Source: Ochromonadaceae sp. CCMP2298 (taxonomy: Eukaryota > Sar > Synurophyceae > Ochromonadales > Ochromonadaceae). Taken from it: a stretch of 35,688 nt of DNA. The stretch covers positions 23,576-59,263 of the forward strand of contig MU633564.1 of assembly GCA_026770595.1 (NCBI GenBank), read 5' to 3'. This document shows, piece after piece, positions 10,411 to 31,500 of the stretch; position 1 is the first letter of the stretch; each line of letters starts with the position of its first letter. The notes below the pieces were generated by a model that worked only from the letters and a program-made list of their open reading frames with translations, had not been told where the DNA came from and made no database searches. The translations under genes were made by a program, and so were the position numbers.

Positions 10411-13400
10411 ATGATGAAGAACTCGCGGAAGAGCGTCGGGGCTCCCACGAGCACGGCCGATCTGCGCAAGAGTCCGCGCAGAAAGACCATCGACGGCTTC
10501 CAGACAATCAAGGAGAACGCCATGGAGAACATCGAGAACGACGTAAACAGTACGAACAAGCGGAGATATTCGACCCGCTCTCCGGCGGTCAAGGGATCTC
10601 AGGAGGGAGCGGACAAGTCATCCAATCCCAACACTCGCCGCACCAGCAACGCCGCTGATCTCTCGGAGCTCCTGGACACCATCGCCAACGACTCTTGCGT
10701 CTCTATCTACTCCGAGGAGGACCCCAGATATGTCAGGGCGGAGATGGGGATGGGGATGGGGATGGGGATTACCGAGACGATGGAGGGATGGATGGAGGCA
10801 GAGACGGAGGCGGTTGTGGAGGAGGATGCGGAGGCAGGCGACGACACTCTAGAGCTCGCGCAGCTGGTCTCCGCCACCTCCAGGACCACCACGGATATCG
10901 ACAACCGCCGCAAGACCTTTGACGGGCAGGCGTGCTTGGGGGACTGGGACAGGGTTGGGGACAGGGGGGATAGAGGGGCCGGCGACAGGGACAGGGCGGG
11001 GGTGAGGGAGCGGAGGGCTACTGTGGATCCGAGTGATCTGGCGGCCATGCTGCGCGACTTGGAGGAGGAGTCCTACGCGAACGAATCTAACAACCAATCC
11101 AACCAGTCTAACCTATCGGCGAATCAGTCAAATCAGTCTGCCAACCAGCCCCATCTGTCGGTCAACCGCTCTAATCTGTCGGCGAATCAGTCCCAGTCCC
11201 AGTCCCACAACGGCCTCAGCTTCTCCTCCGCCTCCGCCAACACCTTCAACTCATCCTCGCTGCACTTCAGCCGCTCCTCAGACGGCGATATTGGTGGTGG
11301 CCGCTCTGTCGGTGGTACTGCCGATGATGCGGATGGGAGCCACTCCACAGTAGCCGGCACGGCTTTGCTGGACAGTGCCATGAGCCCCACTGGCAAAAGC
11401 CCAGCCTACAAGAAATCCCGGTCCGCCACCCCGGCGTCGGTTGCGTCTGCGCCTGGATCTGCGGTGTCTGGGAGCGCGCGTGGTGGGAGCGTGGGCAAGG
11501 GGCCCACCGCCGCCCCCTCTCCTGCGGTCTCCGTCACCTCAGTGGCCTCGGGGGCTTCTGGACGCTCCACGCGTAGCCAGAAGAGCGTACAGGGCTCAGT
11601 CTCCGCCTCTGCTGCCTTGGCTGCTGCCCTGGCCGCCTCTGCCTCCGACTCTGTTGTCCCTGACGCCTCTGCCGATCTCGACCTCGACCACGACCTGGGC
11701 CTGGACCTCGCCCTCTTCTCGCCCAACCAGTCCGGAAGGTCCACAGGGTTGGATATGTCAGGATCCGACAGGTCAGATATGTCAGGAAGGTCAGCAAAGT
11801 CAGGAACCGCTAGTGCCAGAAGGACTAACAGACGTACCACTGTGGATGCTGATGACTTGCAGAGCTTGCTGGAGGAGCTGGAGGAAAGTCAGGAGGGGGA
11901 AAGTCAGGATATGGGGAGTGTGGCGTCGTTTGCATCCCACACCTCCCATACATCCCATGTATCTAAGGCATCCAAGGCATCTAAGGGCTCAAAGGTATCC
12001 AAAGGCTCCAAAGGATCAAAGGGGTCCCATGCCTCTAATGCATCTGTGTCTGAGTCTGTGTCTAGTGTGAACACGCTGCAGCTGATGAGGGACGTGTCAG
12101 GCATGCTGGGGGATGGGGGGGATGGGGGGGATGGGGGGGATGCGGACTCTTATACTGCTGATGTCGATGCTGACGTTGGTGAGGAGGAGGGGCCTGCGGT
12201 GGCCGGGGAGGAGTATGAGGGGGCTGAGGGAGAGGCAGAGGGGGAGTATGGGGCAGAGGGCGAGGGGGAGGAGGGGCACGATATGAGCGAGGTGTCTATG
12301 CTCTCCTGCTCCACTGCCTCTTTCAGCACAGTGGAGATACCCGCAGCCCTGACGCGCTTCCTCTATGCGCAGACCAGCGCCGCGAAGGAGGCCAAGACTG
12401 GGGGCATTGGAAGGGCTTTGGGGGCTGGGGCTGGAGCTGGGACTGGGGCTCTGGACACCTCTGTGGTGGGAGAGGGTGTGGAGGAGGGGAAGGAGTTGGC
12501 GAGGCAGTCGAGTGCGGTGAGGGTGAGGGCCAGGGCGCTGCAGGAGGGGGCCAAGGTTCATGTTAGCAGCACCACCTACACCTCTAACCTATCCACTTCG
12601 GAGGCTGGGGTAGAGGAGGCTGGGGTGGCTGGGGTAGAGGGTGAGGAGGTGGGGGCAGAGACCGAGATGGGGGCGGGGGTTGGGGAAGGGGAGGTCAGCC
12701 ACGCCCTTTCTCTCTCCAACTCCCTACACTCCCTGCAGTCCCACGACTCTGCCGCATTCGGCTTCTCTCAAGGCAGTGACCGGAGGGCCACCGCAGACCC
12801 CGCTGATCTCGCCGCACTGCTGGGGGAGATGCAAGCAGAGCACGAGGCACAGGGCAAGGGGGGCAAGGGGCAGAAGGGGCAGGGACAAGGGGATACGAAT
12901 GTGTCAAATACGTTAAATACGTTCCACGATACGTCCAACGTATCGAACATGTCCCACAACAGCAACAACAATACGTCTGGCTTCGACGGCCTCATCATGC
13001 TGGACGGCTCTGACTACGACAACTTCGACTGCGGCAGAGAGAGCATCGAGACAGTCGTGCTGCTGCAGAGCGTGGCGGACACGCTCAACGCCCTGGAGAG
13101 CTCCCATACCTCCCATAACTCCTACAACGCCTCTGCTACCGCCGCCGCCACCTCTGGCTTCGCCTCCGCCGCTGCCCCTGGCCCCGGCACTGGCGCTGCC
13201 TTTGCAGCATCCCCCGCCCCCGCGCCCACCAAGTCCCCCCTCAGTATCGCTGTAGCGGGCCCGCGCGCAGACGCCCACCGTGCCCGCAGAGAGACCGCAG
13301 ACCAGGCTGATCTGGCACTACTGGCGCTGGAGCTGGAGGATGAGGATGGGGGGTCGGTGCAATCTGTGCCATCTGTCCGATCAATGCCCTCTGTGAAATC

Positions 13401-16400
13401 CACGCAGTCGGCGCAGTCTGGGCAGTCGGGTAGGAGTGGCAAGAGCGTCTCTGCCTCTGCATCTGGTAGTGTCCTGTCTGAGAGGTCGAGCAGATCCACT
13501 AGGTCTGCCTCTACCTCTGCCTCTGCCTCTGCCAAGTCCGCTGCCTCTGCCTCTAAGCCCGCCAAGGCCTCTGCCCCTGCCTCTGGCTCCTCCAAGAAGG
13601 GTAGGAAGGCCAAGGAGGAGAGGGAGGCACAGGAGCAACAGCAGGCATCGAAGGACGTACTGGCACAGGTGCAGGCAGCAAGAGAGCAGGCAGAGAGGGA
13701 CGCAGAGCAGGCACAGGGGGAGGAGGACGATGGGCAGCAGACAGTGGACCCCGCCTTCCTCGACGACTCCATGTCCACACAGTCCATGGCCACCATCGCC
13801 ACCCTAGAGCTGCTGGAGAACGTGGCTGCATCTCTGGAGCAGCAGCATGCGATTGACGCGTTGAGGGGGGAGGACTATGTGGACTACTCCGTATGCAGCG
13901 AGCTGACTTCAGGTATGTATAGTATGGGGGGGGGTGGGGTTTAGTGTATAGTATGGGGTATACTATATATAGTATGGGTTACACAATATATAGTATATAG
14001 TATGTAAGCTCACCTGATACTTGCTATGCGCTATTCCAGCAGGCTACTATCAACTACACACATATTTAAAACTCCCCATACCTCCCACACCCCATACCTC
14101 CCACCCCATACCTCCCATACAGGCTCCTACGCTCCTCTGGCGGATCTGCTGGCGCTGGCGCAGGAGGCAGGGGAGGGGGGGATGGTACTGTCCCCCACCC
14201 GCGCTCCCACCACCACCACCGTCGATACCAATGTCGCCGCTGCTGTTGCTGTCACTGCTGGCGCCGCTGATGCGGATGTCCCGGTCTCGGCCTCGCCCAG
14301 TCCCCGCAAGAGGGGCAAGAAGAGCCGCAGCGAGGAGAAGGAGAGCCGTCCAGTCACGCGCATCGCCCAGCGCCGAGCCTCTACTGGCGCTGTGCCTGCC
14401 GACCTGTCTACTGCCTCAGGCTCCCCCTATGCCTCTGCTGCCTCTCCCGCTGCATCGGTCTCTGCCTCTTTTGCCCACGATACAAGCATGGGTGCAGGTG
14501 TGGGTGTGGACGCCTATCAGGGCATGCCCCCCCCCAGCAGCCTCAAGAGCTGTCTCTCCACCCGCAAGGAGCCCCGCCCCAACCCCTCCAGCGCAGGCAT
14601 CGCCCACGACCCTTCACGCCGCAATGTGGTCTTCGGCTCCCCCCAGGTACTAAAACCACCCCCAACAAATCTGTACTATCACAATAAAACCCACATACCC
14701 ACAATAAAACCCTCCATCTATTATAATAACCCTACCCTACCCTATGTTCGGCTCTCCCCAGGTGGCTGAGTTCAACAAAACCAGCCCCACCACCTCCTAC
14801 ACCCCCCTGCACAAAGACCAGGCCAAGTCCCTCTTCTCCATGAGCGCACTGAGGGCCTACGACGAGCAGGGGGGGGATGTGGTGACGGAGGAGAACGATC
14901 GCATATTGGGGGAGTGGGACAGGCTGACCAATGCGTCTGACGGGTCCGATGAGGAGGATATGGGGTTGGAGGAGGGGATGGGTGAGGGTATGGAGGGTGA
15001 GGGAGGTATGGAGGGTGGGGAGGGTATGGGGATGGATATCTTCCCACACAAGCCCACCCCCCGCTCAGCTAGACGCCGCCGCTCCATGCTGCAGCCCCAG
15101 CCCGCCTCGGACAGCGAGGGCGAGGGGTCTGTAGGGTCTGTGGGGGGGGAGGGGTCGGGGGCTGACAGAATGCCCGTCAGCCCTGCCTTCATGCCGCACG
15201 AGGTCGAGTTGGACCACGCCCCCACCACCCACACCAATACCAGTGCATACGGGTACGGGGGAGGGTATGGGGGGGAAATATCCATGACCTCGGACCCCTC
15301 TGGTACCGTAAACCTACCCGCAAATCTGGCCGATCTGGTGGGGCAGAACGACTCAATCGCGGAGCAGCAGGCAAAGCAGCTAGCAGAGGCGCAGGCCGAG
15401 GCGCAGGCGCGATTTCTGAGCAGCAGTGCCTTCGAGGAGTGCAGTCGCACGGAGGAGATCGAGCTGGACCTTCAGGCGCTGATGAGACACGTAGACGACT
15501 CTGGACTGGGTATGGGTGGGGGCCTGGGTGTGGAGGCTGGGGATGGGGGAGCTGGTGCAGGTGCTGGGGATGGGGGGGGGGCTCAGGGGACACTCTCCCA
15601 GAGGGGATCTCTGGACAGCCAAGGCAGTCGGGCCAGCAAGACCAGTGGTAGTGGCAGCAGGGGGGGCAGCAGGGTATCAGGGAGCAGCGGGGGGTCTGAG
15701 GGGCTGTCCATGTTGGATCGCTCGCTGTCCCATCTCAGTGACGCCGATGGCAGCGAGGCCCTAGGGGAGCTCATGGGTATGGGTAGCGGGGGGGGGGATG
15801 TGTCCCTGGAGTCTACCCTTGGGGGGCTGGGGGGGGATGTGTCTACGCACTCTACAAGATCTACACGCTCCACGCGCTCCACTGCCTCCGCCTCTGCCTC
15901 AGCCAACAATACTTCTAACGCTTCTGCTGCCTCTGCCGGGTCCGCCGGTTCTGGACGCTCCACACGCAGTAAGAACGCCTCCAGGAATAACAGTGTAAGC
16001 TTCGGCAGTGTCCCCTCCGCCACCCGCACCAAGGGCAGGCGCCCCCCCACGCCTGCTGCGAAGGGGACGGGGATGGATGGGGGGGATGAGGAGTCAGGAA
16101 TGGAGGAGATGTCAGGAATGGAGGGGGGTGAGGGCGAGGACTTCACCTATGCGCTAGAGGGGGACCTGGCTGCAATGGTGGGGAACGTCGCCTCAACGCC
16201 CGCCCATGCTCACCCCGCACAAGCTTCTGTCGATGCTTCCATGTCCATGTCCCTCCATGCCTCCTCGACTAAGGACCAGGCAGAGGCACAGGAGGGGGGA
16301 CAGGGGGGCCATGGGTATGGGGTGGATCCTGAGATATCCGTGATAGAGGGGTACCTGCACGACCACACCGAGCACGACTGCGACTTCGCCTCCACCCCCA

Positions 16401-18588
16401 GCCACCACCACGCCCCCTTCACCCTCCCTACTACCCTCCCTACCGCCGCCTCCCACACCGCCCGTGCCGATGCCACCCCCTCAAGCCCCCCCTCGCGCGA
16501 CATCTCTGCCGACACGTATGGGGAGTTCGATGACGGGCCTGGGTACATGGGGGAGCAGGAGCCGAGCAGACTGGGCGAGTTTGATCTGCTAGAGCAGGAG
16601 GAGAGGGAGGACAGAGAGGCGGAGGCTAGAGAGGCAGAAGCGGGTGTGGACCTCATGTCCAGACTGAGAAGTCTCAACGCGGGCGCGCGCTCGAACACTC
16701 TTCTGCAGCTCGGTACCACCTCATCTGCTATGGGTGGTGCGTCCCGTATGTCTATAGGCATGAAGCGTATGAGCATGGTGAACTCTTCGCTGCTGCTGCA
16801 GAGCGCTGCGAAGACTGGCAAGAAGGCGAGAAGGGGGAGGGCCAGACTGGATGAGTCTGTGTGCTCTGTGGGGGAGATGGAGACAAGTGCTCTGGAGGGT
16901 GTGGGAGCTGGTGTTGGTGGGGTAGAGGCAGTAGGTGAGGAGTGGGGGGGAGATACGCAGGTGGATACACAAGATGATACACAGGAGGAGACTGCGGTGT
17001 ACGAAACCGCCATAGCGCTCCTGCGCACCCATCTGTTCAGCTACTTCGCCGCAGTACAGGGGGTGTGCATCCTGCTCCGCTCGTACCGCCCCGAGGTGCA
17101 GGCTATAGTACGTACTACTATGAGCACCCACCTGGCCTCCGCTTATCTGGACTCGCCCCTCAGCCACGTGCCCGCCCCTGCCTTGGAGGCCGCCTGGACT
17201 CTGGACTCCTCTGATAGCGAGTTCTTTCTGGATTCAGTGGTGGACAGCCATCCCGAGGCATACAAAGCACTGGGCATGACCCCTACCCCTACTGCCACTA
17301 CTGCACCTACCTCTACCTCTGCATCTGCGCCTACCCTCGCGTCCCCTGTCTCTGACTCTGCCCCCTCTGGGACCGGTTTGGGAGCGGGTACGGGAGCAGG
17401 TGTGGGGTGCGGTGCGGACAATCTGTGGGTCAATATGTGCGCTGCCAGCCTGCTGGGCCGTGCCTCGCGCCTCAAGGCGAGCAACGACCTGGGTAGCGAT
17501 ATGAGTGATACGGGGGAGGACATTTCCTCTGCTGATAATGGCACTGGTACTGTTACTACCACTCGCGCTGCTACTACCCCCACCACGGGCACGGATCGGT
17601 TCTTCGACAAGGTGCTCAACCGACCCGCTAGCCAGCAGGCACAGCTCACTGCCTCCATCGCTGCACAACTAAGCGCCCTACCCAGAGGCGTGGATGGGGC
17701 TATGGGTGGGGGTATGGGAGGTGTGGGGGTTGGGGGGGATTCACAAGTGTCCCTACGGCAGGCCCTGCAGGGGGCCAGACAGCTGCAAGAGACCACCCTA
17801 CAAGTCGACATTGTCAACAAACTCACCTACTGTCGCGTCACCACCTTCCAGGTACCTTATACACCTAATAACCCCATAAACCTATAATAACCCCATAAAC
17901 CTATAATAACCCTATAATAACCCTATAATAACCCTATAATAACCCTATAATAACCCTAATAACCCTGACCCTGACTCTATAACCCTATAAACCTAACCAT
18001 CACCCTTTCCCGTGACCCACCTCACCCTATCCCTCACCCTACCCTCTACAGAGTGACTGCATCTGCGTAACCGCCCAGCTGAGCGCAGAGGTGGCTGCCA
18101 AACTGGTATTTCATGTGTCCAAAACCTACCCCTCCATCTCCACCTCTAGCCCTACCTCTGCCGCCTCTGCAGTCCTCTCCATCTCCAACATCGAAGTGGA
18201 CCTGGAGATATCCCCCTCCCCCGCCTCCCACCTCGCATCGGCCTACTTCGCCACCATCATGTGCTCAGACGCACTGCAGGGGCCGCTCTCCAGCACCGTC
18301 CTGAGTCGCGTCGAGGCCCCGGGCCAGATTCCGCCCCTTTTGAGAGCCATTTCGGGCCATATCTCCACCCTCAGGGTGGTTTTGGCGCGCCTGGGGGGTC
18401 TGCAGGGGTTGGGGTGCGGGGTGAAGCTGGTGCGCTGCGGGGGGGCCTTTATGCTGTCCGTAACTCCCCCCGCGCCTGCAACTGGCGCAGCCCTGCCCCC
18501 GCTGCTCTTCCCGTACAGCAGCATTATCGCGGGGGCCGTGAGGGGCGCCGATGATCTTGAGCGGATGATCCAAAACCGGATGAAGTAA
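10411..18588 (+). CDS. Giant repetitive scaffold protein, candidate kinetochore KNL1/Spc7 homologue
   Basis: Four exons (10411-13912, 14123-14646, 14762-17851, 18052-18588) join in frame to 2,550 residues with no internal stop. Most of the protein is disordered, rich in Ser, Ala, Gly and Glu. A motif of the form RRxTxDxxDLxxLLxxLE recurs at about residues 201, 474, 791 and 959, with shorter relatives near 23, 76, 166, 1109 and 1251. RRNVVFGSPQ at about 1333 fits an RVxF PP1-docking site and is followed by EFNKTSPTTSYTPL. A helical segment lies at about 2085-2135. The last ~200 residues (about 2355-2550) are globular and end FPYSSIIAGAVRGADDLERM. KNL1 proteins combine an N-terminal PP1 site, many phospho-repeats that recruit Bub proteins, and a C-terminal RWD domain. 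The architecture fits, but no canonical MELT motif is visible, so the name is inference. The start is the first ATG of the open frame. Confidence 0.55.
17880..17975. repeat. CCCTATAATAA tandem repeat in KNL1-like intron 3
   Basis: The unit AATAACCCTAT is repeated about eight times, grading into CCCTAATAACCCTGACCCT. It lies inside the intron at 17852-18051. It resembles degenerate telomere-type CCCTAA sequence but is short and interrupted. Confidence 0.75.
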
Positions 18589-18950: not shown

Positions 18951-20327
18951 CTACAGGTAGGATGCTATGTTGCTCTGCACCTCGCGCGTCGCCAGCATCC
19001 GCAACAGCACCCCAGATCCCCCCACCCCAGCACCCGCACCGCTTGTCAGCCCCAGCTCTCGCAGTATTATCACAAATGACTTCCGGCACTCCCATCGCTC
19101 ATCCATATACCTACCATATTCGGTCAGATTCCTGCACTCCCAGGGCAGCCTTCCCTTCCTATCTGGTAGGGGAAGGGCCCCTGCACGCTCGAGCTGCTTG
19201 GCCACATCGAAGTTTGACGCCTTATATGCGTCGTGCAGAGCAGTGCCCCCCACACCTTCAGAGTAGTGCCCCTTCATCCCCCACCATTGCTCAGAAATAC
19301 CGTCGATCAAAGCCCCATGCTGCAGCAGCAACCGGACCGTCTGCATCCGTGTGTGCACTATTGCTCTACCGGCAAAACCCCTAAGCCTAAAACCAGCAGC
19401 CTCAATGAGCGCGCGGCAGCCCATCAGCGGTGTCCGCCCCTCATACGAAGTCTCGCTGTCCACCGCGCCCTGCGCTAGAAGGAACGCCATAAGTGCCGGA
19501 CGGTCACCCCTATTCGCCACAAGACAAAGGGGTGTCCTTTTCCCTACCCCCACCGTGGCGTTGACCTCTGCACCGTTCCTGATCGCATCCCCCACCATCG
19601 CAACGATAGATTGCTCGTCGGGAAGCAGATCTAGCCAGCAGATGTCCCCCAGTACGTCTCCTGAAGGGCCCGGGAGATCACATCGCGCCCCCCTCCTGAG
19701 CAGCTCCCGGGCGATTTGATATAGCGCATTTATCTCTTCCTCTGCTGTGTGGTGCATTGTAGGTATGCAGCGTAGCACGTTCTTTAGGGCTGACTCGGCT
19801 GTATAGTTAGGAGTCGTCCAGTCGATGTCGGCACCAACATCCAGCAGTTTGCAGGCGATGTCGAAATAACCCCAGCTGCAGGCGCGAAACAGAGGCGTGC
19901 GCGCGTGTTCCGCGTTGTACTCGTCATCTTCGTCCTCCTCCTCCTCCTCCTCCTCCTCCCCCTCCTCCTCCTCCTCCTCCTCCTCCTCCTCCTCTTCTTC
20001 CTCCTCCTCCTCCTCCTCCTCTTCTTCTTCCTCCTCCTCCTCCTCCTCTTCTTCCTCCTCTTCAATATTTTCAGTCACCAATTCATCAGTCTTGAACCAG
20101 CTTATCATCCCGTTTGGGTCATAGCCGGGCAGCACCAGTGCTCCATTCACATCCGCCCCGAGCTCTATCAAGACCTCAACCAACTCCAACTTGCCTTCGC
20201 CGTTCGCGATTACCAAGTGCAGTTGCTCAAGCAGCGATTCTGGAGTGGATGTCTGCTTCCTAAGCCATTCGAATATGCATTCCCTGGGCACCAATTCCAG
20301 AGCGTCTAAGAATTTTTGGGCGTTCAT
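18951..20327 (-). CDS. Ankyrin-repeat protein with long glutamate tract (minus-strand paralogue)
   Basis: A single intronless frame of 458 residues starts MNAQKFLDALELVPRECIFE. Ankyrin-type units include VEVLIELGADVNG (about residue 45), RTPLFRACSWGYFDIACKLL (about 140), RTPLCLVANRGDRPALMAFL (about 257) and GGTALHDAYKASNFDVAKQL (about 355). Between the first two is an almost pure Glu tract of about 45 residues encoded by GAG/GAA repeats. The last ~70 residues (KGRLPWECRNLTEY, then LRMLATREVQSNIASYL) are shared by every family member here and may be a capping domain. Ankyrin repeats bind other proteins; the partner is unknown. The gene is divergent from its plus-strand sister at 20692 and convergent with the KNL1-like gene. 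The start matches the N-termini of its paralogues. Confidence 0.88.
   Translation of the reverse strand: MNAQKFLDALELVPRECIFEWLRKQTSTPESLLEQLHLVIANGEGKLELVEVLIELGADVNGALVLPGYDPNGMISWFKTDELVTENIEEEEEEEEEEEEEEEEEEEEEEEEEEEEEEEEEEGEEEEEEEEDEDDEYNAEHARTPLFRACSWGYFDIACKLLDVGADIDWTTPNYTAESALKNVLRCIPTMHHTAEEEINALYQIARELLRRGARCDLPGPSGDVLGDICWLDLLPDEQSIVAMVGDAIRNGAEVNATVGVGKRTPLCLVANRGDRPALMAFLLAQGAVDSETSYEGRTPLMGCRALIEAAGFRLRGFAGRAIVHTRMQTVRLLLQHGALIDGISEQWWGMKGHYSEGVGGTALHDAYKASNFDVAKQLERAGALPLPDRKGRLPWECRNLTEYGRYMDERWECRKSFVIILRELGLTSGAGAGVGGSGVLLRMLATREVQSNIASYL
19931..20062. repeat. (GAG/GAA)n trinucleotide expansion coding for poly-Glu
   Basis: About 130 bases of CTC/TTC triplets on the plus strand encode the Glu tract of the minus-strand ankyrin gene. 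The plus-strand sister has only a mixed Glu/Asp/Ser segment at the same place, so the tract has expanded in this copy. It keeps the reading frame. Confidence 0.9.
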
Positions 20328-20366: not shown

Positions 20367-20652
20367 ACTCTGTGTGTATGCGTGTGAAGGGGACGAGAGG
20401 GGGAAGCAGAGAGCTGCGGATGATTGATAGTAACAAGATTCTGAGGCGTTGGTTCAAGCAGCACACACTTTACCTCCTTGCAGGCATCAAAAAGGCTGGT
20501 GCTGACTCCTGACTTTCTCTGCCAGCCACCAAAGTACGTACAATTTATGTCCATTGTACGTACGTCGTTACGCCAAAATTAAAGTCAGGACCGACTCTCC
20601 ATCCCCCACCTCTCCCTCTCGTTCCCTTCACCTGTTCACGCACACACGCCCA

Positions 20653-20665
20653 GACGGAAACAGCT
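20653..20665 (+). promoter_or_regulatory. Conserved ankyrin-gene upstream element, plus-strand paralogue
   Basis: GACGGAAACAGCT ends 27 bases upstream of the ATG at 20692, and ACGACCATGATGAA follows. It differs from the other two copies by one base. Confidence 0.55.
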
Positions 20666-20691
20666 CGACATACAACGAGGACAGAACGACC

Positions 20692-22032
20692 ATGATGAAG
20701 AACAAGGACATAGGTAAATTCTTTGACGCAGTGGAGAATTCTTCGAAGAAATCCACGCCGTCGCTGTTGAAGTGGCTCAGGAAGCAGGCCTCCACTCCAG
20801 AGGTGCTGCTGGAGCAACTGCACTGGGCAGTCGATATGGGCCGGTTGGAGATGGTGGTGGCACTGATAACGCTGGGGGCGAATGTCAACGGCGAACTGGC
20901 GCTGCCTGGCGCTGATTTTGAAGAACCCGACGATGAGGACGATGAGGGGATAGACGAGGACGATCCTGCTGTTGATGTTGAGGTGCCTGCTGGTGGAGTG
21001 CCTGTTAATGGTGCTGAGGAGCAGAGCGAGGTAGGGAGCATCATTGACGGGAGCGAGGAGGAGGACGAGGAGGACTCGGACGAGGAAGACTCGGACGAGG
21101 AGGATTGGGTAGACCCGGCCACAAAGGTGGTCACGCCTCTGTTTCGCGCCTGCAGATTTGGATTTTTCGACATCGCCTGCAAGCTGCTGGACTCCGGGGC
21201 CGACATCGACTGGGTGACTCCGAACGAAGAAAGCGAGTCAGCGTTGAAGTTTGCTCTAGAACATATAGACGGGACTGAGAGCCCGCCATGCCTAATCGCC
21301 CAAGAGCTGCTCAGGAGGGGGGCGAGGTGCGACCTTCCGGGCCCCTCAGGGAATGTTATGATGGATATCTGTCAGTTAGACGTCTATTCCGACGAGCGCA
21401 CTGTCATTGCGATGGTCGGGGACGCTATCCGCAACGGTGCCGAGGTCAACGCCATAGTCGGGGTGGGCAAGTGGACCCCCCTTAGCTTTGTTGCAATGAT
21501 CGGTAACCGGCCAGCCCTGACGGGGTTCCTTCTAGCGCAGGGCGCGGTGGATCAATCACCGATGGGCTGTCGCGCGCTCATTGAGGTTGCTCGTTCTTCC
21601 TCGAGAAAGAGTCGGTTTAAGGGGCAGGAATTTGTCAGCAGGCAGATGCAGACGGTGCGGTTGCTGCTGCAGCATGGGGCTTTGATCGACGGTATTTCTG
21701 AGCAATGGTATGAGATGGATGCGGGGTGCACTGCTCTGCACTACGCATACGCAAAGGCAAACTTCGATGTGGCCAAGCAGCTCGAGCGCGCTGGGGCCCT
21801 TCCCTTTCCCGATCCAAATCGAAGGTTGCCCTGGGAGTGCAGGGATGAGGTTGCATACATTGAATATCTGGACAGCCGGTGGCAGCGCCGCAAGGCATTT
21901 GTATTTATGCTGCGAGAGCTGGGGCTAACAAGCGGTGCGGGTGCTGGTGGTGTTGTGGGGGAGGTTTCTGGGGTGCTGTTGCGGATGCTGGCGACGCGCG
22001 AGGTGCAGAGCAACATAGCATCCTTCCTGTAG
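20692..22032 (+). CDS. Ankyrin-repeat protein (plus-strand paralogue)
   Basis: This is an intronless frame of 446 residues starting MMKNKDIGKFFDAVENSSKK. The frame is open further upstream, but the ATG at 20692 matches the start context of the paralogues and follows the conserved upstream element. Ankyrin-type units include VVALITLGANVNG, VTPLFRACRFGFFDIACKLL, WTPLSFVAMIGNRPALTGFL and CTALHYAYAKANFDVAKQL. A Glu/Asp/Ser-rich acidic loop sits at about residues 120-140, where the minus-strand sister has poly-Glu. The C-terminus carries the family block RLPWECRDEVAYIEY and VLLRMLATREVQSNIASFL. The first ~100 residues are nearly identical to the broken copy at 10033, indicating recent duplication or conversion. 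Function and binding partner are unknown. Confidence 0.88.
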   Translation: MMKNKDIGKFFDAVENSSKKSTPSLLKWLRKQASTPEVLLEQLHWAVDMGRLEMVVALITLGANVNGELALPGADFEEPDDEDDEGIDEDDPAVDVEVPAGGVPVNGAEEQSEVGSIIDGSEEEDEEDSDEEDSDEEDWVDPATKVVTPLFRACRFGFFDIACKLLDSGADIDWVTPNEESESALKFALEHIDGTESPPCLIAQELLRRGARCDLPGPSGNVMMDICQLDVYSDERTVIAMVGDAIRNGAEVNAIVGVGKWTPLSFVAMIGNRPALTGFLLAQGAVDQSPMGCRALIEVARSSSRKSRFKGQEFVSRQMQTVRLLLQHGALIDGISEQWYEMDAGCTALHYAYAKANFDVAKQLERAGALPFPDPNRRLPWECRDEVAYIEYLDSRWQRRKAFVFMLRELGLTSGAGAGGVVGEVSGVLLRMLATREVQSNIASFL

Positions 22033-25513: not shown

Positions 25514-28500
25514 CTACCGCTCGCCTCGCCTATGTTTGCAGATTTCCTTCAGGTCGCTTCGGGACACCATGTGCTGCAGTCCGCGCATGGCAGGCAGGTG
25601 CAAAGCCGCCCGCCGCGCCTCGGGTGAGTGCAGCAGCCTCTTGACAGCCCGCCTGCGCGTCTCTGTGCCGAACACGGTCTCGCCTGCCAGCAGCTGCAGG
25701 CCCGCCAGTAAAAGCGTCCCCACCGGGTCAGATTTCAGGCCAGGGTTAGTACGAGGGAGCGGTAGGGGCGTCCCCACCAGCAACTGCGGTTGCTCCACCC
25801 ACCCCTCGTCTGCGGCCTGACGCAGGTAGGCCAGATCCACCAGACAGCAGGAGCCGCGTGCTTGTCTCCAGTCCAGCCCCAGCATCTGGTCAGCCTCCCA
25901 CTCGGAGAGCAGCAAGCACACTGTTGGGAGAACAAACCTGTCGTACAGCAGCATCGAGCCCACGGGGCGGGAGTGCTCGGAGTGATCTGCTAGCAACTGC
26001 CCCTCTCGACCTGTAACGGCCAGCATGAAGTTGCGCGTGACAGAGATGCGGCACAGGCCCCAGTTGATGGCCGCTAGAGAGGGCAGGTGCGCCCTGATAG
26101 CCTCGGCAAGAGGCAAAACATTCGCATTGGCTGGCAGGGTTATTGGGCCCACACCACGCAGCAGCACTGAGCTGAAGTCCCACCGCTGCGGCTCCCTGGG
26201 CGCCATCCTGGGGAACTGCCGCTCCACCTCCTTCTCTAACTCCCGCTCACACTCCAGTTCCCGCTCGCACTCTTTGTCCAGACCGCTGCACACAGGCGTC
26301 ACGTCGGAGCCGTATTTCCTGGCGTGGCTGCCGATGATGGCCTTGTTCGCCCCCCCCGCTGCGTCCAGCTGCACGCCCAGCCTCTCGATGCGCGCCTGGT
26401 CGCGCTGCTGCCGCTTGAGCACCACGGCCTCCGCTGTCTCCTCCACCACCGGGCCTGCGTAGAGGTCCTCGACGCGCAGGTTCTCGTCCAGCAGGCGCGT
26501 CTTCGGGTCCCTCGTGGTGGTGAAGTGGCTGCCCTGTCCGCCCCACTCAGGCAGGCCGGCAGTGATCGCCTCTACGGTGTTGTGCATTGTCCAGGTGAGC
26601 ACATGCAGGGGCGTGAGCTCCTCGGCCGCGACACGGTTCTTAGTGCGGATCTTGGCCACGAGCTCTGCAGGCACTGCGAGCATCAGTTTCTGTCAGTACA
26701 TGAGCTTGCAAATCCTGCCCGCCGCCTGCATTTTGTCCTTGCGCATGCCGGTGCCCACCATGAGCAGTGCGGTGGCATCTGCCTGCAGCTTGAGGTCCGC
26801 GCCCCTGCACCTGCTCTCGTCGAAGTACACAAAAGCGTCCTTCTCACGGATAGGCGAGCTACCCAGCGGCCAGCTGCGTCCGTGCCTACTAGTGACGGTC
26901 CATGCATTGGCAGCGGTGCTGAAGTAGGCCACTCCCTGGAAGCGCGACGAGGCGGGCAGCAGCTCCAGCACCGCTGCGCAACCTGCTCGTTGCTCAGGCC
27001 TGCCATCGTGGCCCCCGCGTCGATCAAAGCCGCCGCCTCCGCCTCCACCACCGCCAGCCGCAGCACCACCTCGCTGAGGGCCACTACATCGCTGCCCAGG
27101 CATACGACGCGCTGGCTGCGCAGGCACACGAGGTCCAGCATCTTAGCGTCCGTGCTCAGCAGTTCCTGGCACTCGGGCTGCTGCTGTTTGACCTGGAAGG
27201 GCAGCAGCACCGCATTGTCTTTCGTGCCTGAGAAGCCCATCACACGCTGCTGCTTGTTGTCCGCCAGGTGGAAGGCGGTGCTCACGAGGCGGTGCGGGAA
27301 CTGCATCAACTCCCTGGGCAGCACGCAGGTGGCCAGCCAGAAGTCCACTGCTGCCGTGTTGTTAGCGTAGACGTGGTGTAGCAGGGCTAGCTGCAGCTCG
27401 TTGGACAGATCCAATTTGCGCACATCGTCCAGGGCCCCCTGCTCGGTCGATAGGCGGGCGGCGTGCAGCCACAGCACGTACTCCTCCCTCTGCGCGATTG
27501 GCCCCAGGGACAGCAGCACCCGTGAGGCCTCCCGCACCTCGTCAATCGTCAGGCCGTCGTGGTAGTAAGACAGGTGCGTGTACAGGATCATAATGTCGGG
27601 CTGTGAGTATTCTGCGCGCTCGGAGGGTGTGTCGCTGGCACGGTAGGGGACCGCCACGCGCCTGCGCAAGCCGCGGCGCTCGTCCCTGCCGAAATCCACT
27701 CGGTGTCTGCGGCACAAGCAGTGCACCAGCAGCCCGTACGCCAGCATCCCCTGCAGCGCCAGCAGCTGGTCCAGCTGACACCCCCTGCCTGAGCAGGTCG
27801 CCAGATTGCCGCTCCAGCCACGCCAGGCTCTTGTCCTTCTCAGTCACGAAGGGGACAATAGTGGCGCGCAGGGGGTGGTTTTGCAGCCAGCGCATGTGGT
27901 AGGGCGGATCGTCCATGACCCCCTCCGCCAGCAAGATAAGCAACGGCAGCGTAACATCATCCAGCCCCTGTCCCTGCAGCAGACGCGTGTCATCGAAGGC
28001 GCGCGCCCCCCGCTCTGCCGACAGCCTCCTGGCCACGTCTGGATCCTGGAGGATGGCGGCGATCTTAGGGCTGGTCTGCAGCTGCCTCAATAGCGCCTGC
28101 GGCCCCACCCAGCGCTCCTTCCCGGCAGGCAGCTCCAAGCAGCTTCCCACTGCGTATGTGAGCTGATACTTGTGGGAAAGTATCTCGTCGCTCTCGTCCA
28201 GACAGGCAGCTCCTCAATTACCGTCCGCAGCTGCACGCACGTTGCCTCTTGTCCGTCGGCCATGGCGAGCTCGTCCCACTTCAGCAGCAGCGAGAGGCGA
28301 TGCTCAGGAGCTACGCACACAGCGCTCAGCGAGGCCTTGCAGCGCACGCAGCACTCTGCGGGTCCAGGCGCACGTTTCGGTGGAAGGGCATCTGATACAT
28401 CCTGCGGTTCATGGGGCTGGCAGTCACGTGGCAGTGCAGGAAGTGGTACGCCTCGCCCAGCAGCGGGGACAGGAAGTGCAAGGAGCATATCGGGCTGCGC

Positions 28501-31500
28501 CAGGGATAGCAGCAGCATGGGCAGGATGACACCCGGTACTGCACTTTCCGTATCTGTAGCTGCTGCTCTACCTCGAACACCAGCCACTGCGGGTGCTGCT
28601 GCACGTCCCGCTCGAGCTCCTCCACGCTGCCCACGCTGGCAAAATTTTGGGCCCCTCTCAACTTATCCTCCAGTACACAGGCCTGCAGCCACGTCAGCGT
28701 GCCGGTGTTCAGACGCAGCACCGCGGACTCCAACAGGAAGGGGTTGAAGCGCCGCAGCTCCTTGGGTGCCCACACTGCACGCGCAACATCGCGGGCAGTG
28801 GCGACGGGTTCCAGATTGGCAGCGCGGCTCATGTTGAAGACAGTGGCGTGCCAGCCCGCAGAGGCTAGTACGTGGGAGACACTACGCAGCAGCTCTGCCT
28901 CCAGCTGCCCGCGTACGTTGCGGATGCGGCTCAAGTGTTGTCTGAGCAGGCCCTCTGTGTGCTGCACGCTGTGGACCAGTCTCACTGCGTAGGTGCCCTG
29001 GTAGGCCTCCCAGCTCTGCTGCAGCTGCTCCACCAAGCTGCGCCCCAGCTGTGAGTCCTGGAAGACCGCCACGTGCAGGGGCAGCGCTGTGTGTTCTCCG
29101 CTGGGCTGCTGGCACACCATCCCCCGCAGCGCGTCCTCGATCGATGTCACCACCTCGGCGCACTTCATCGCATGCTCTGTGGAGGGGAGGTCCAGGGAGC
29201 CGACCTCGGGGAACACGCGGCCCTGGGGGCGGGCGGCCACGGGCAGGCCAAGTACGCGCTTCTCCTCGTCGGCGCTCAGGGCAGCTCGCGGGTTGAGCTG
29301 CCCCCGCTGCTTGCGGTGCCGATAGTCACTGGCGGCGTCGATGTCCAGCTGCAGTGGCGGCCTACGCAGGTCCTTCCTATTGTCGGTGTGCAGGAAGCTC
29401 AGCTCCCGCGCACTCTGGTCCAGCTCGCGGCAGGGCTGCGCCAGCGCAGGCGTGCGTATGCCGAACTGCACGATGGACTGCAGGTGGCCGTTCTCATTGC
29501 TGCTGAGGGGCCGGTTCACTCAGCTCTGCCGCAGCAGCTCCACCGCAGCCTCCCCGCCTGTGCGGCGCTGTCTGGGCTCTGGCACCTCTGCGTCTGTGGC
29601 GGCGTGCAGGGCGGCCAGCTGCAGTCTAGCCTCCACCGCCAGGGGCCCGGCCGCAGCCTCCAGGGTGCCGAAGCGGGCGTGCTCGTCGTACGCGTGCAGA
29701 CTGCGGTGCGCGTCGCAGGCGCTGTCCCCGTGCACAAACACTCTGTGCGCCCGGCGCTGGACAGTCCCCGCAGGCACGATCACCTTGCGGGCGCTGACTG
29801 CCTCCAGCACGAGGTACTGCTGGAAGCCCCTGAGCTGGTCGGGCAGCAGCTGGTGCGCACTGAGCTTGAAGCCTCGGTAGTTTATGCACTGCAGCTGCCC
29901 CTCCACAAGCTGTAAGGCCAGGTCGTACCGCGGCAGTTCGAACAGAATGGCGCCGCGACGGGGCGCGCGCAGCGTTTGCACCAGCTCTGCATCGGTCTCG
30001 AGCTTCTCCAGCACGCGCAGCAGCTGCGACTCCCCCTGCCTAGTCTGGATCACGAGCTCGTCCAGCGAATCAGACCCCCTAGCCATTATTATCCCAGTGA
30101 TACAGCATCTGTTGACCTCCCTGCGCAGCTCCGTCCAGTGCACCTGCCTCTGGTTCTCGCCCATGCGGAAGCACAGCATCCTGAGCGAGCTGTTGCCAAC
30201 TGCGTGGAAAACAATGTAGTTCCGCTCCAGGAAGAAGAACACGCCTCGCTCCCGGTACAGCAGCCCGCGCAGCACCACTGTGTCTGTATCTCTGCAGAGC
30301 CAGTAGCTGTGCATCCGCTGCAGCCGGAGGGGCAGGTCGCCGCCCCACGCCTTGACGCCCTCCTCGGTCTCATCCAGCAGCTCCAGCTTGTACGGCCTGT
30401 CCGGGTCGATCTCGTGCACCACCAGCACACCTGCGTCAACGGAGAAGCTGTACATGTGACCGTCCACGGGGCGTGCTGTGAGGAGCGAGCCGTCGCTGCT
30501 GGCAGTCACCTCGAAGTTGCGATCCCCAAAGGTGCAGCGGTACAGGGGCATCTGCAGAATGGTCTGGGGCAGTCGACACGGGGGCAGGCCGTCGAACAGC
30601 AGCACGCCCGTCATCGCGTTGAGGCTGTAGAGGTTGCCGCTAGGGGAGACGGCCTCGTAGCACGCAGTGTCGCCGTCAGCCACCACCCGCCTCCATGTCA
30701 GCTCGCTGGGCGTGGCGTCCAGCACGAGCTTCACCGCCGCAGTCAGCAGGTGCGGGTGCAGGTCGAGCACGCGGAGCACCTCAGGCAGGCGGCGAGCCAT
30801 CACTGCGAGAGTGACTGCCTTGAGCGCCTGCACCTGTGCGTCATAGGGCGTGGGGTCTTCGAACAGCCTGTTATAGTCTGCCAGCAGCACCTGCTGCACT
30901 AGCTCCCCGACATCGTCCACGGAAAGCTCCCCTGCGCAGTGGCAGACGATCGCATACATGTAGAACATGCAGCGACGCGCGCGCAGCACCAGCACCTGCT
31001 CCATCGCAGCCCCCTCGATCTCCGCAGCGCCTTCATCGGCCCAGGCTCGCGATATCTGCGCAAACTGGCGAGCCGTCTCGCGTGTGGCAGCATCCCACTG
31101 CGAGGCCACGGCTGCAATCTCCCCCAGCACCAGCACTGCGCCGTGCTCTCTGGGCTTGTGGCGCAGCTCGTCCACGAGCTCGTTTAGCTCCGTTCTCAGG
31201 GCTGCCCAGCCGCCATGCTCGGCTATGTCGGTGCGCCAGAGCTGCCGGGGCATGTCGTCGTCCGTGAGCTGGCCCAGATGGTACAGCGTCTGCTGCAGCA
31301 ACAGACGCACTGCTGGGGCGTCTAGGGGCAGGGTGCGGTCCCGCAGAGCCACGCAGAGTCTGCGCAGCTGCTGCAGGGGATAGGCGCGCAGGGCCCCGAA
31401 GGCAAGGAAATGCTGCTTGCTGGGCAGCCAGGCGGGCATAGTGTCCAGCACTGCCTCGGGCCAGTTGCCGCGCGCAGGGGCCGACTGGCCACCGCCCTCC

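Follow-up and report, generated by a model that had tools for sequence, protein, structure and literature searches.

How a KNL1 kinetochore scaffold might serve the spindle checkpoint in the absence of canonical MELT repeats is the question raised by a gene of Ochromonadaceae sp. CCMP2298 (placed by NCBI in the Ochromonadales, Synurophyceae, Ochrophyta), found in a stretch of 35,688 nucleotides that was analysed as a whole and is referred to here as the window. The predicted fold of a relative, together with profile matches, supports the protein as the KNL1/Spc105 kinetochore scaffold of this chrysophyte-type alga. Across a set of 24 proteins, the window protein included, two different motif arrays were found in sequence to flank a candidate PP1-docking site of the VxF type in the disordered part of KNL1. 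Motifs of the short form RRxT[AV]DPxD[ML]xxLLxxL (class A) precede the site and those of the short form [DE]xTxxLEx[ND]LxxL[LM] (class C) follow it. The features of the locus are as follows.

10411..18588, + strand: KNL1/Spc105 gene, spliced reading, identical to P0004
10477..10536, + strand: degenerate class A, RRKTIDG, residue 23, below 10 bits by the matrix
10636..10695, + strand: near-full class A, RRTSNAADLSELL, residue 76, 11.5 bits, one residue out of register
10906..10965, + strand: degenerate class A, RRKTFDG, residue 166, below 10 bits by the matrix
11011..11070, + strand: class A, RRATVDPSDLAAMLRDLEEE, residue 201, 45.2 bits
11830..11889, + strand: class A, RRTTVDADDLQSLLEELEES, residue 474, 37.8 bits
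12781..12840, + strand: class A, RRATADPADLAALLGEMQAE, residue 791, 37.1 bits
13036..13095, + strand: class B, RESIETVVLLQSVADTL, residue 876, fits the relatives' consensus GRESxDTxxLxxSV
13285..13344, + strand: class A, RRETADQADLALLALELEDE, residue 959, 31.0 bits
13735..13794, + strand: degenerate class A-like QQTVDPAFL, residue 1109, without RR, -2.4 bits, below threshold
Residue 1251: partial class A, RRASTGAVPADL
14617..14643, + strand: VxF-type PP1-docking candidate RRNVVFGSP, residues 1333-1341, x = Val
15296..15349, + strand: class C', TVNLPANLADLV, Thr at residue 1524
15443..15499, + strand: class C, SRTEEIELDLQALMRHV, residue 1570
16139..16195, + strand: class C, DFTYALEGDLAAMVGNV, residue 1802
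17816..18585, + strand: C-terminal RWD region, residues 2361-2550, fold predicted on relative P0013; the last intron (17852-18051) splits the region

Two motif arrays around a candidate PP1-docking site

Three similarity searches yielded 23 other proteins, P0005-P0027; the true number is at least 23, as in two of the searches only the top word-sharing candidates (7988 and 7992) were scored. P0006 originates from Paraphysomonas (Chrysophyceae). Only weak family scores were obtained for P0026 (E 1.6e-4) and P0027 (E 0.31), yet both contain the VxF block, which reads RRVAFGSPTVAEFNKTSPSMRLTPM in P0027, and they were used as an outgroup. Several of the metagenome proteins are apparently cut at one end. 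The alignments comprised 5 of the 6 proteins then known (A1), 14 of the 24 (A3), 7 of the 24 (A4) and 4 of the 24 (A5).

The RVxF-like stretch RRNVVFGSP recorded in the first-pass annotation is present at residues 1333-1341, and the conserved block continues from a Q past the intron into VAEFNKTSPTTSYTPL. The pattern [RK]-x-V-x-F of the KNL1 PP1-docking motif occurs in 24/24 proteins, marking a candidate site. Among these proteins, part of which are closely related, the x residue is V in 13, I in 4, A in 3, M in 2, F in 1 and N in 1, and Ser or Thr in 0. Elsewhere, Ser or Thr at the x position of RVxF has been reported as an Aurora B site (PMC5874294). Since x is never Ser or Thr in the 24 proteins, the conserved VxF lacks, as judged from sequence, the switch by which Aurora usually controls PP1 docking. 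A second VxF-like stretch of the window KNL1, RNNSVSFGSV (15983-16012, residue 1750), has Ser at x and is unconserved; an Aurora-type switch could be retained there in CCMP2298.

With the window left out, 83 class A copies give the consensus R-R-[EMLQV]-T-[AVI]-D-[PAS]-x-[DE]-[MLI]-x-x-[LMI]-[LMI]-x-x-L-[ED], whose RR, T and residue classes at columns 6, 9, 10 and 13 follow from the seed pattern. These copies, which come from 21 of the 23 proteins other than that of the window, also served to train a 20-column matrix; it identified five sites of at least 10 bits in the window protein and none in 300 shuffles. Four full copies (residues 201, 474, 791 and 959), one near-full copy (76) and four partial copies (23, 166, 1109 and 1251) extend over ~1,240 residues, in agreement with the earlier count of at least four full and about five partial copies. 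At RRATADPADLAALLGEMQAE, the columns R, R, T, D and D of the 24-protein alignment are invariant or nearly so.

A leave-one-out scan at 10 bits located 99 class A copies in 22/24 proteins, 1 to 10 in each and all before the VxF; P0026 and P0027 yielded none by the same scan. Both of these outgroup proteins have SDTTELTASN[FY]V in their N-terminal parts, and P0027 carries several copies of the type DSTVxLGDLLD before the VxF, perhaps a different pre-VxF array. In a seed-free check of the 24 proteins, bare RRxT was found at 124 sites before the VxF and 8 after it, the pre-VxF part representing 16,302 of 40,181 residues, and RRxT itself is thus enriched before the VxF. P0007 contains tandem class A units of 42 residues (n=5), a turnover of the kind described for MELT arrays (PMC7292645). 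Likeness was higher in class A than in the flanking linkers for 7/7 pairs tried, for example 86/90 versus 505/652 and 53/78 versus 146/454, with a smallest margin of 51/54 versus 306/352; the pairs were chosen by hand and class A sites were defined on one sequence per pair.

AlphaFold modelling of a stretch of P0009 with seven RRxT.[DN]P copies gave a pLDDT of 53 and a pTM of 0.16, a low confidence that should be expected of a disordered chain. In 7/7 copies the Pro is the first residue of a modelled helix, and one extra helix lies outside the copies. The predicted anatomy of class A is thus a Thr, one further residue, an Asp-Pro helix start and then an amphipathic helix. The conserved Asp, at +2 in 92/124 bare RRxT sites before the VxF, and a short amphipathic helix, here predicted, had both been described in the first-pass annotation. 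The RRxT array, now seen in 22/24 proteins, fits the site of a basophilic kinase, as had been suggested there.

For MELT repeats the consensus M-[E/D]-[L/I/V/M]-T has been reported (PMC3779320). The canonical pattern M[DE][LIVMF][ST] has 0 matches in the window protein, and the earlier statement to that effect holds for this protein; beyond the coordinates then given, a second motif family looks MELT-derived. Class A does not qualify as MELT, its 87 copies reading RRxT with Arg at -2 and -3 as part of the defining pattern. The class C pattern T-x-x-[LIM]-E-x-[NDS]-[LIMV]-x-x-hydrophobic pair, by which the T, the E and other columns were set, matched 53 copies in 24/24 proteins, all after the VxF, as against a mean of 0.1 and a maximum of 1 in 50 shuffles of the 24 proteins. 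The window protein possesses two class C copies and one copy of class C' (TxxLP), which occurs once after the VxF in 19 proteins with one extra match before the VxF. Class C also departs from the canonical MELT pattern, with Glu at the place of the Thr in 53/53 copies (part of the search pattern). Outgroup copies are ENTMELETNINTLL and ENTMELETDINDLL in P0027 and DNTIELEADLTSLL and DDTVELETNIEGLF in P0026; class C of P0027 reads T-M-E-L-E, the Thr lying immediately before Met. We infer from these sequences that class C may be a diverged MELT array, in which Glu has taken over the phospho-Thr position and a different Thr directly precedes the Met.

Position -2 of the class C Thr is D, E, N or Q in 38/53 copies, in keeping with the E/D/N/Q that Mps1 prefers there (PMC3076450). 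R or K was found at -2 or -3 in 0/53 copies and at -1 in 12. The kinase signatures of the two arrays are opposite, class A having R at -2 and -3 and class C none.

Identity of the protein and its checkpoint partners

The gene comprises four coding exons on the forward strand (10411-13912, 14123-14646, 14762-17851 and 18052-18588), of which the range 10411..14646 reported by the first-pass annotation covers exons 1 and 2, the gene continuing to 18588. All three introns are GT-AG and the spliced frame is open through the last codon. The product of 2550 residues plus stop is identical over its full length to P0004, 'hypothetical protein B484DRAFT_441336 [Ochromonadaceae sp. CCMP2298]' in nr. The third intron (17852-18051) consists mostly of repeats of type ACCCTATAATA.

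The C-terminal tandem RWD arrangement of KNL1/Spc105 was found in the predicted fold of relative P0013, to which human KNL1 is nearest. PF18210 (Knl1_RWD_C) matched 5 of the 14 members of A3 at E up to 10, with a best E of 0.0024, and no other Pfam family matched as many. When Knl1_RWD_C was compared with five full proteins, P0005 alone matched, at 17.8 bits where 27.8 are needed, and the window protein gave no match. A search of the PDB with profile A1 returned six chance-level matches (best E 0.85) with no KNL1 among them, so the KNL1 identity is not shown by sequence alone. An identity other than KNL1 was rejected on the fold, and the Knl1_RWD_C matches below cut-off point the same way. The missing canonical MELT does not exclude KNL1, because land-plant KNL1 also lacks it.

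The genome searched was an assembly of 11.2 Mb in 724 contigs, with the window in contig C9. Completeness was gauged on the proteasome, for which 12 matches on 7 contigs, C231 and C321 giving the same scores, correspond to ~6 genes of the 14 expected; absences of partner genes from this partial assembly therefore say little. No second KNL1 gene was found in it, and the Spc7 family gave no match, all 14 controls being equally silent. Fold and profile support the KNL1 candidate of the first-pass annotation.

Mps1 is present as one gene with a long open frame (L006:2277-6959, C631). The best 22 of 60 listed PDB matches of its kinase domain are TTK (~200 bits), the next family scoring 67, and its N-terminus is Mad3_BUB1_I-like or TPR-like at E 2.8e-4 and 23.8 bits, below the 31.4 cut-off. 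Its C-terminus, ETLDMTGFNDFF, contains a MELT-like LDMT. An Aurora kinase, assigned by identity without reciprocal search, is 61% identical to the human Aurora B kinase domain (E 7.6e-110), and Ndc80 is present at E 2.2e-41. The Mad1 family gave no match at E up to 0.1 in the partial assembly. The single HORMA match of the genome is Hop1-like by eye, so Mad2 is not shown.

Elsewhere in the gene, a block LRSLNAGAR..SIGMKR (16637-16780), prominent in the consensus of the relatives, lies between class C and the RWD region. Two ankyrin-repeat frames in opposite orientations adjoin KNL1 (18951-20327, - strand; 20554-22032, + strand), and frames with DUF3645 and DUF3638 at 26683-29519 (- strand) are perhaps exons of one large gene.

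Proposed division of control and its alternatives

The best explanation of the whole, with only slightly less than an even chance of being correct, is that the protein is KNL1, class C a diverged MELT array and class A an added docking array switched by Aurora. The class C Thr would be phosphorylated by Mps1 and class C would constitute the main Bub3-Bub1 site, while class A would add between 1 and 10 docking sites that can be switched. The class A Thr would be the target of a basophilic kinase, probably Aurora B, and its phosphorylation, three residues ahead of a predicted short, N-capped amphipathic helix, may let a checkpoint or error-correction factor bind that helix in many copies. PP1 at the VxF would reverse class A phosphorylation. 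As the x of the VxF is never Ser or Thr and the Aurora switch on PP1 appears to be absent there, the Aurora input to KNL1 may have been relocated to the class A array. That control of KNL1 is split in this way, with Mps1 acting on a Glu-substituted MELT array after the VxF and Aurora on a new multi-copy helix array before it, is conceivable if doubtful. Were this the case, tension sensing would write docking sites directly on KNL1 rather than only evicting PP1.

Several observations weigh against this explanation. The fold was modelled on P0013 rather than on the tail of the window protein itself. Ala, which is less than ideal for Aurora at +1, occupies this position in 45/87 class A copies (50/124 bare RRxT sites). 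The case for a MELT origin of class C depends on MELE in P0027 and on IELE, VELE and IEME in P0026, proteins with the weak family scores E 0.31 and 1.6e-4, and comparison of the class A and class C profiles gave a probability of only 31.5% over a shared D-L-x-x-L-L core, which is no more than suggestive of a common origin. The sample includes several close, non-independent sets (P0012/P0013, P0017/P0018/P0021 and P0011/P0014), and an organism is assigned to two of the 24 proteins, one of the Synurophyceae and one of the Chrysophyceae; the earlier description of class A as lineage-specific is supported in part, by its absence from the two outgroup proteins and within the reach of these two assignments. 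Of the partner genes that the first-pass annotation had listed for checking, the partial assembly yielded Mps1 but neither Bub1 nor Bub3. Two Bub3 queries gave 4 and 1 matches, WD40 stretches 24-46% identical only; on identity and on inspection of four loci, without reciprocal search, these were assigned to WD40 proteins other than Bub3. For Bub1/BubR1, the single match of PF08311 at E up to 1 was the Mps1 gene and PF08171 matched nothing. INCENP was also not found, the controls being silent too. MadBub genes exist in other stramenopiles such as Ectocarpus and Aureococcus (PMC5204127).

The first-pass annotation had read class A as the MELT replacement itself, in which case Bub3, or a changed Bub3, would read the phospho-Thr of RRxT and bring Bub1. 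The 1 to 10 copies in 22 proteins and the five tandem units of P0007 are like MELT arrays (PMC7292645), and the window protein is without canonical MELT. This reading is nonetheless unlikely and was not upheld, since class C, C-terminal of the VxF in 24/24 proteins and apparently MELT-derived, is the better heir to MELT. Class A has Arg where MELT has Met and Glu, and is predicted to be helical beyond the Thr; in the structure of the complex, Bub3 receives the hydrophobic pair of MELT in a hydrophobic pocket, and the Glu and phospho-Thr face Arg residues (PMC3779320). Bub3 was, in addition, not found in the partial assembly. An improbable alternative is that class A works like the KI motifs of vertebrates, the helix docking a TPR domain (that of Bub1, BubR1/Mad3 or Mps1) in a contact tuned by the Thr. 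Human KI2, SENKIDFNDFIKRLK, forms a short helix when bound to the BUBR1 TPR (PMC3267040; PDB 3si5), and what class A has in common with it is hydrophobic-Asp-x-x-Asp-hydrophobic together with a short helix, predicted in class A; the Mad3_BUB1_I-like N-terminus of the genome's Mps1, below cut-off as it is, also speaks for this reading. Of the KI2 residues I-x-F-x-x-F-I-x-R-L in contact with the TPR, the essential core I.F..F[IL] is nevertheless found in 0/87 copies, the place of F215 is Pro in 63% of seeds and the Bub1/BubR1 TPR was not found in the partial assembly. As the essential residues are missing, class A was rejected as a KI motif in the strict sense.

Further from the evidence, class A might be a repeated basic patch in contact with microtubules or DNA, neutralised by phosphorylation and involving no docking. 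The 124 bare RRxT sites before the VxF against 8 after it would suit such a patch; conservation continues through the acidic-amphipathic stretch to about column 18, non-seed columns included, none of which a charge patch needs, and the idea has little probability. Docking of PP2A-B56 or 14-3-3 by class A is highly improbable: an LxxIxE-like string is present in 19/87 copies and missing from the other 68, and the Pro that 14-3-3 requires at Thr +2 in its usual mode occurs in 0/124 bare RRxT sites before the VxF. Both candidates were rejected on these counts.

Comparison with known systems

KNL1 arrays are the platform for the spindle checkpoint, and the present case bears on how this platform is rewired after loss of MELT, which land plants also lack. 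Checkpoint wiring in golden algae may differ, and this lineage, with a readily recognised second motif family, arrays cleanly split around the PP1 site and no Aurora-type Ser/Thr there, would offer a test of whether kinase input and docking module can be exchanged in evolution. KNL1 proteins with unusual repeats are known as such. In the accessible portions of the open-licence literature, no account was found of a two-part array whose halves carry opposite kinase signatures on either side of a PP1 site lacking Ser/Thr; the main survey of KNL1 repeats falls outside that scope.

The protein resembles KNL1/Spc105/Spc7/Blinkin in being long and disordered, with a VxF, repeat arrays and a C-terminal tandem RWD. 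It differs in that the window protein has no canonical MELT, an array stands before the VxF, x is not Ser/Thr in 24/24 proteins, and Knl1_RWD_C matches fall below cut-off in relatives and are lacking in the window protein. MELT repeats are approached by class C of outgroup P0027, which reads T-M-E-L-E after the VxF with an acid at Thr -2, but Glu takes the position of the phospho-Thr in class C, and class A is marked by Arg-Arg, is devoid of the Met/Leu pair and is predicted to turn helical following the Thr. Land-plant KNL1 is also reported to be without canonical MELT (PMC11794483, PMC12526889). For Arabidopsis KNL1, contact with BUB3 is predicted through two disordered segments, and Met-Ser-Ile-Val stands in for MELT in one of them (PMC12595034); unlike the algal protein, no RRxT array is mentioned in the available part of that account. 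Class A shares with the KI motifs a short helix, a hydrophobic-Asp start and a position within KNL1, and differs in being without the essential Phe and Ile (0/87) and in its many copies, as against the two KI motifs of vertebrate KNL1. The nearest precedent found for the way in which class A may act is the vertebrate KI motif.

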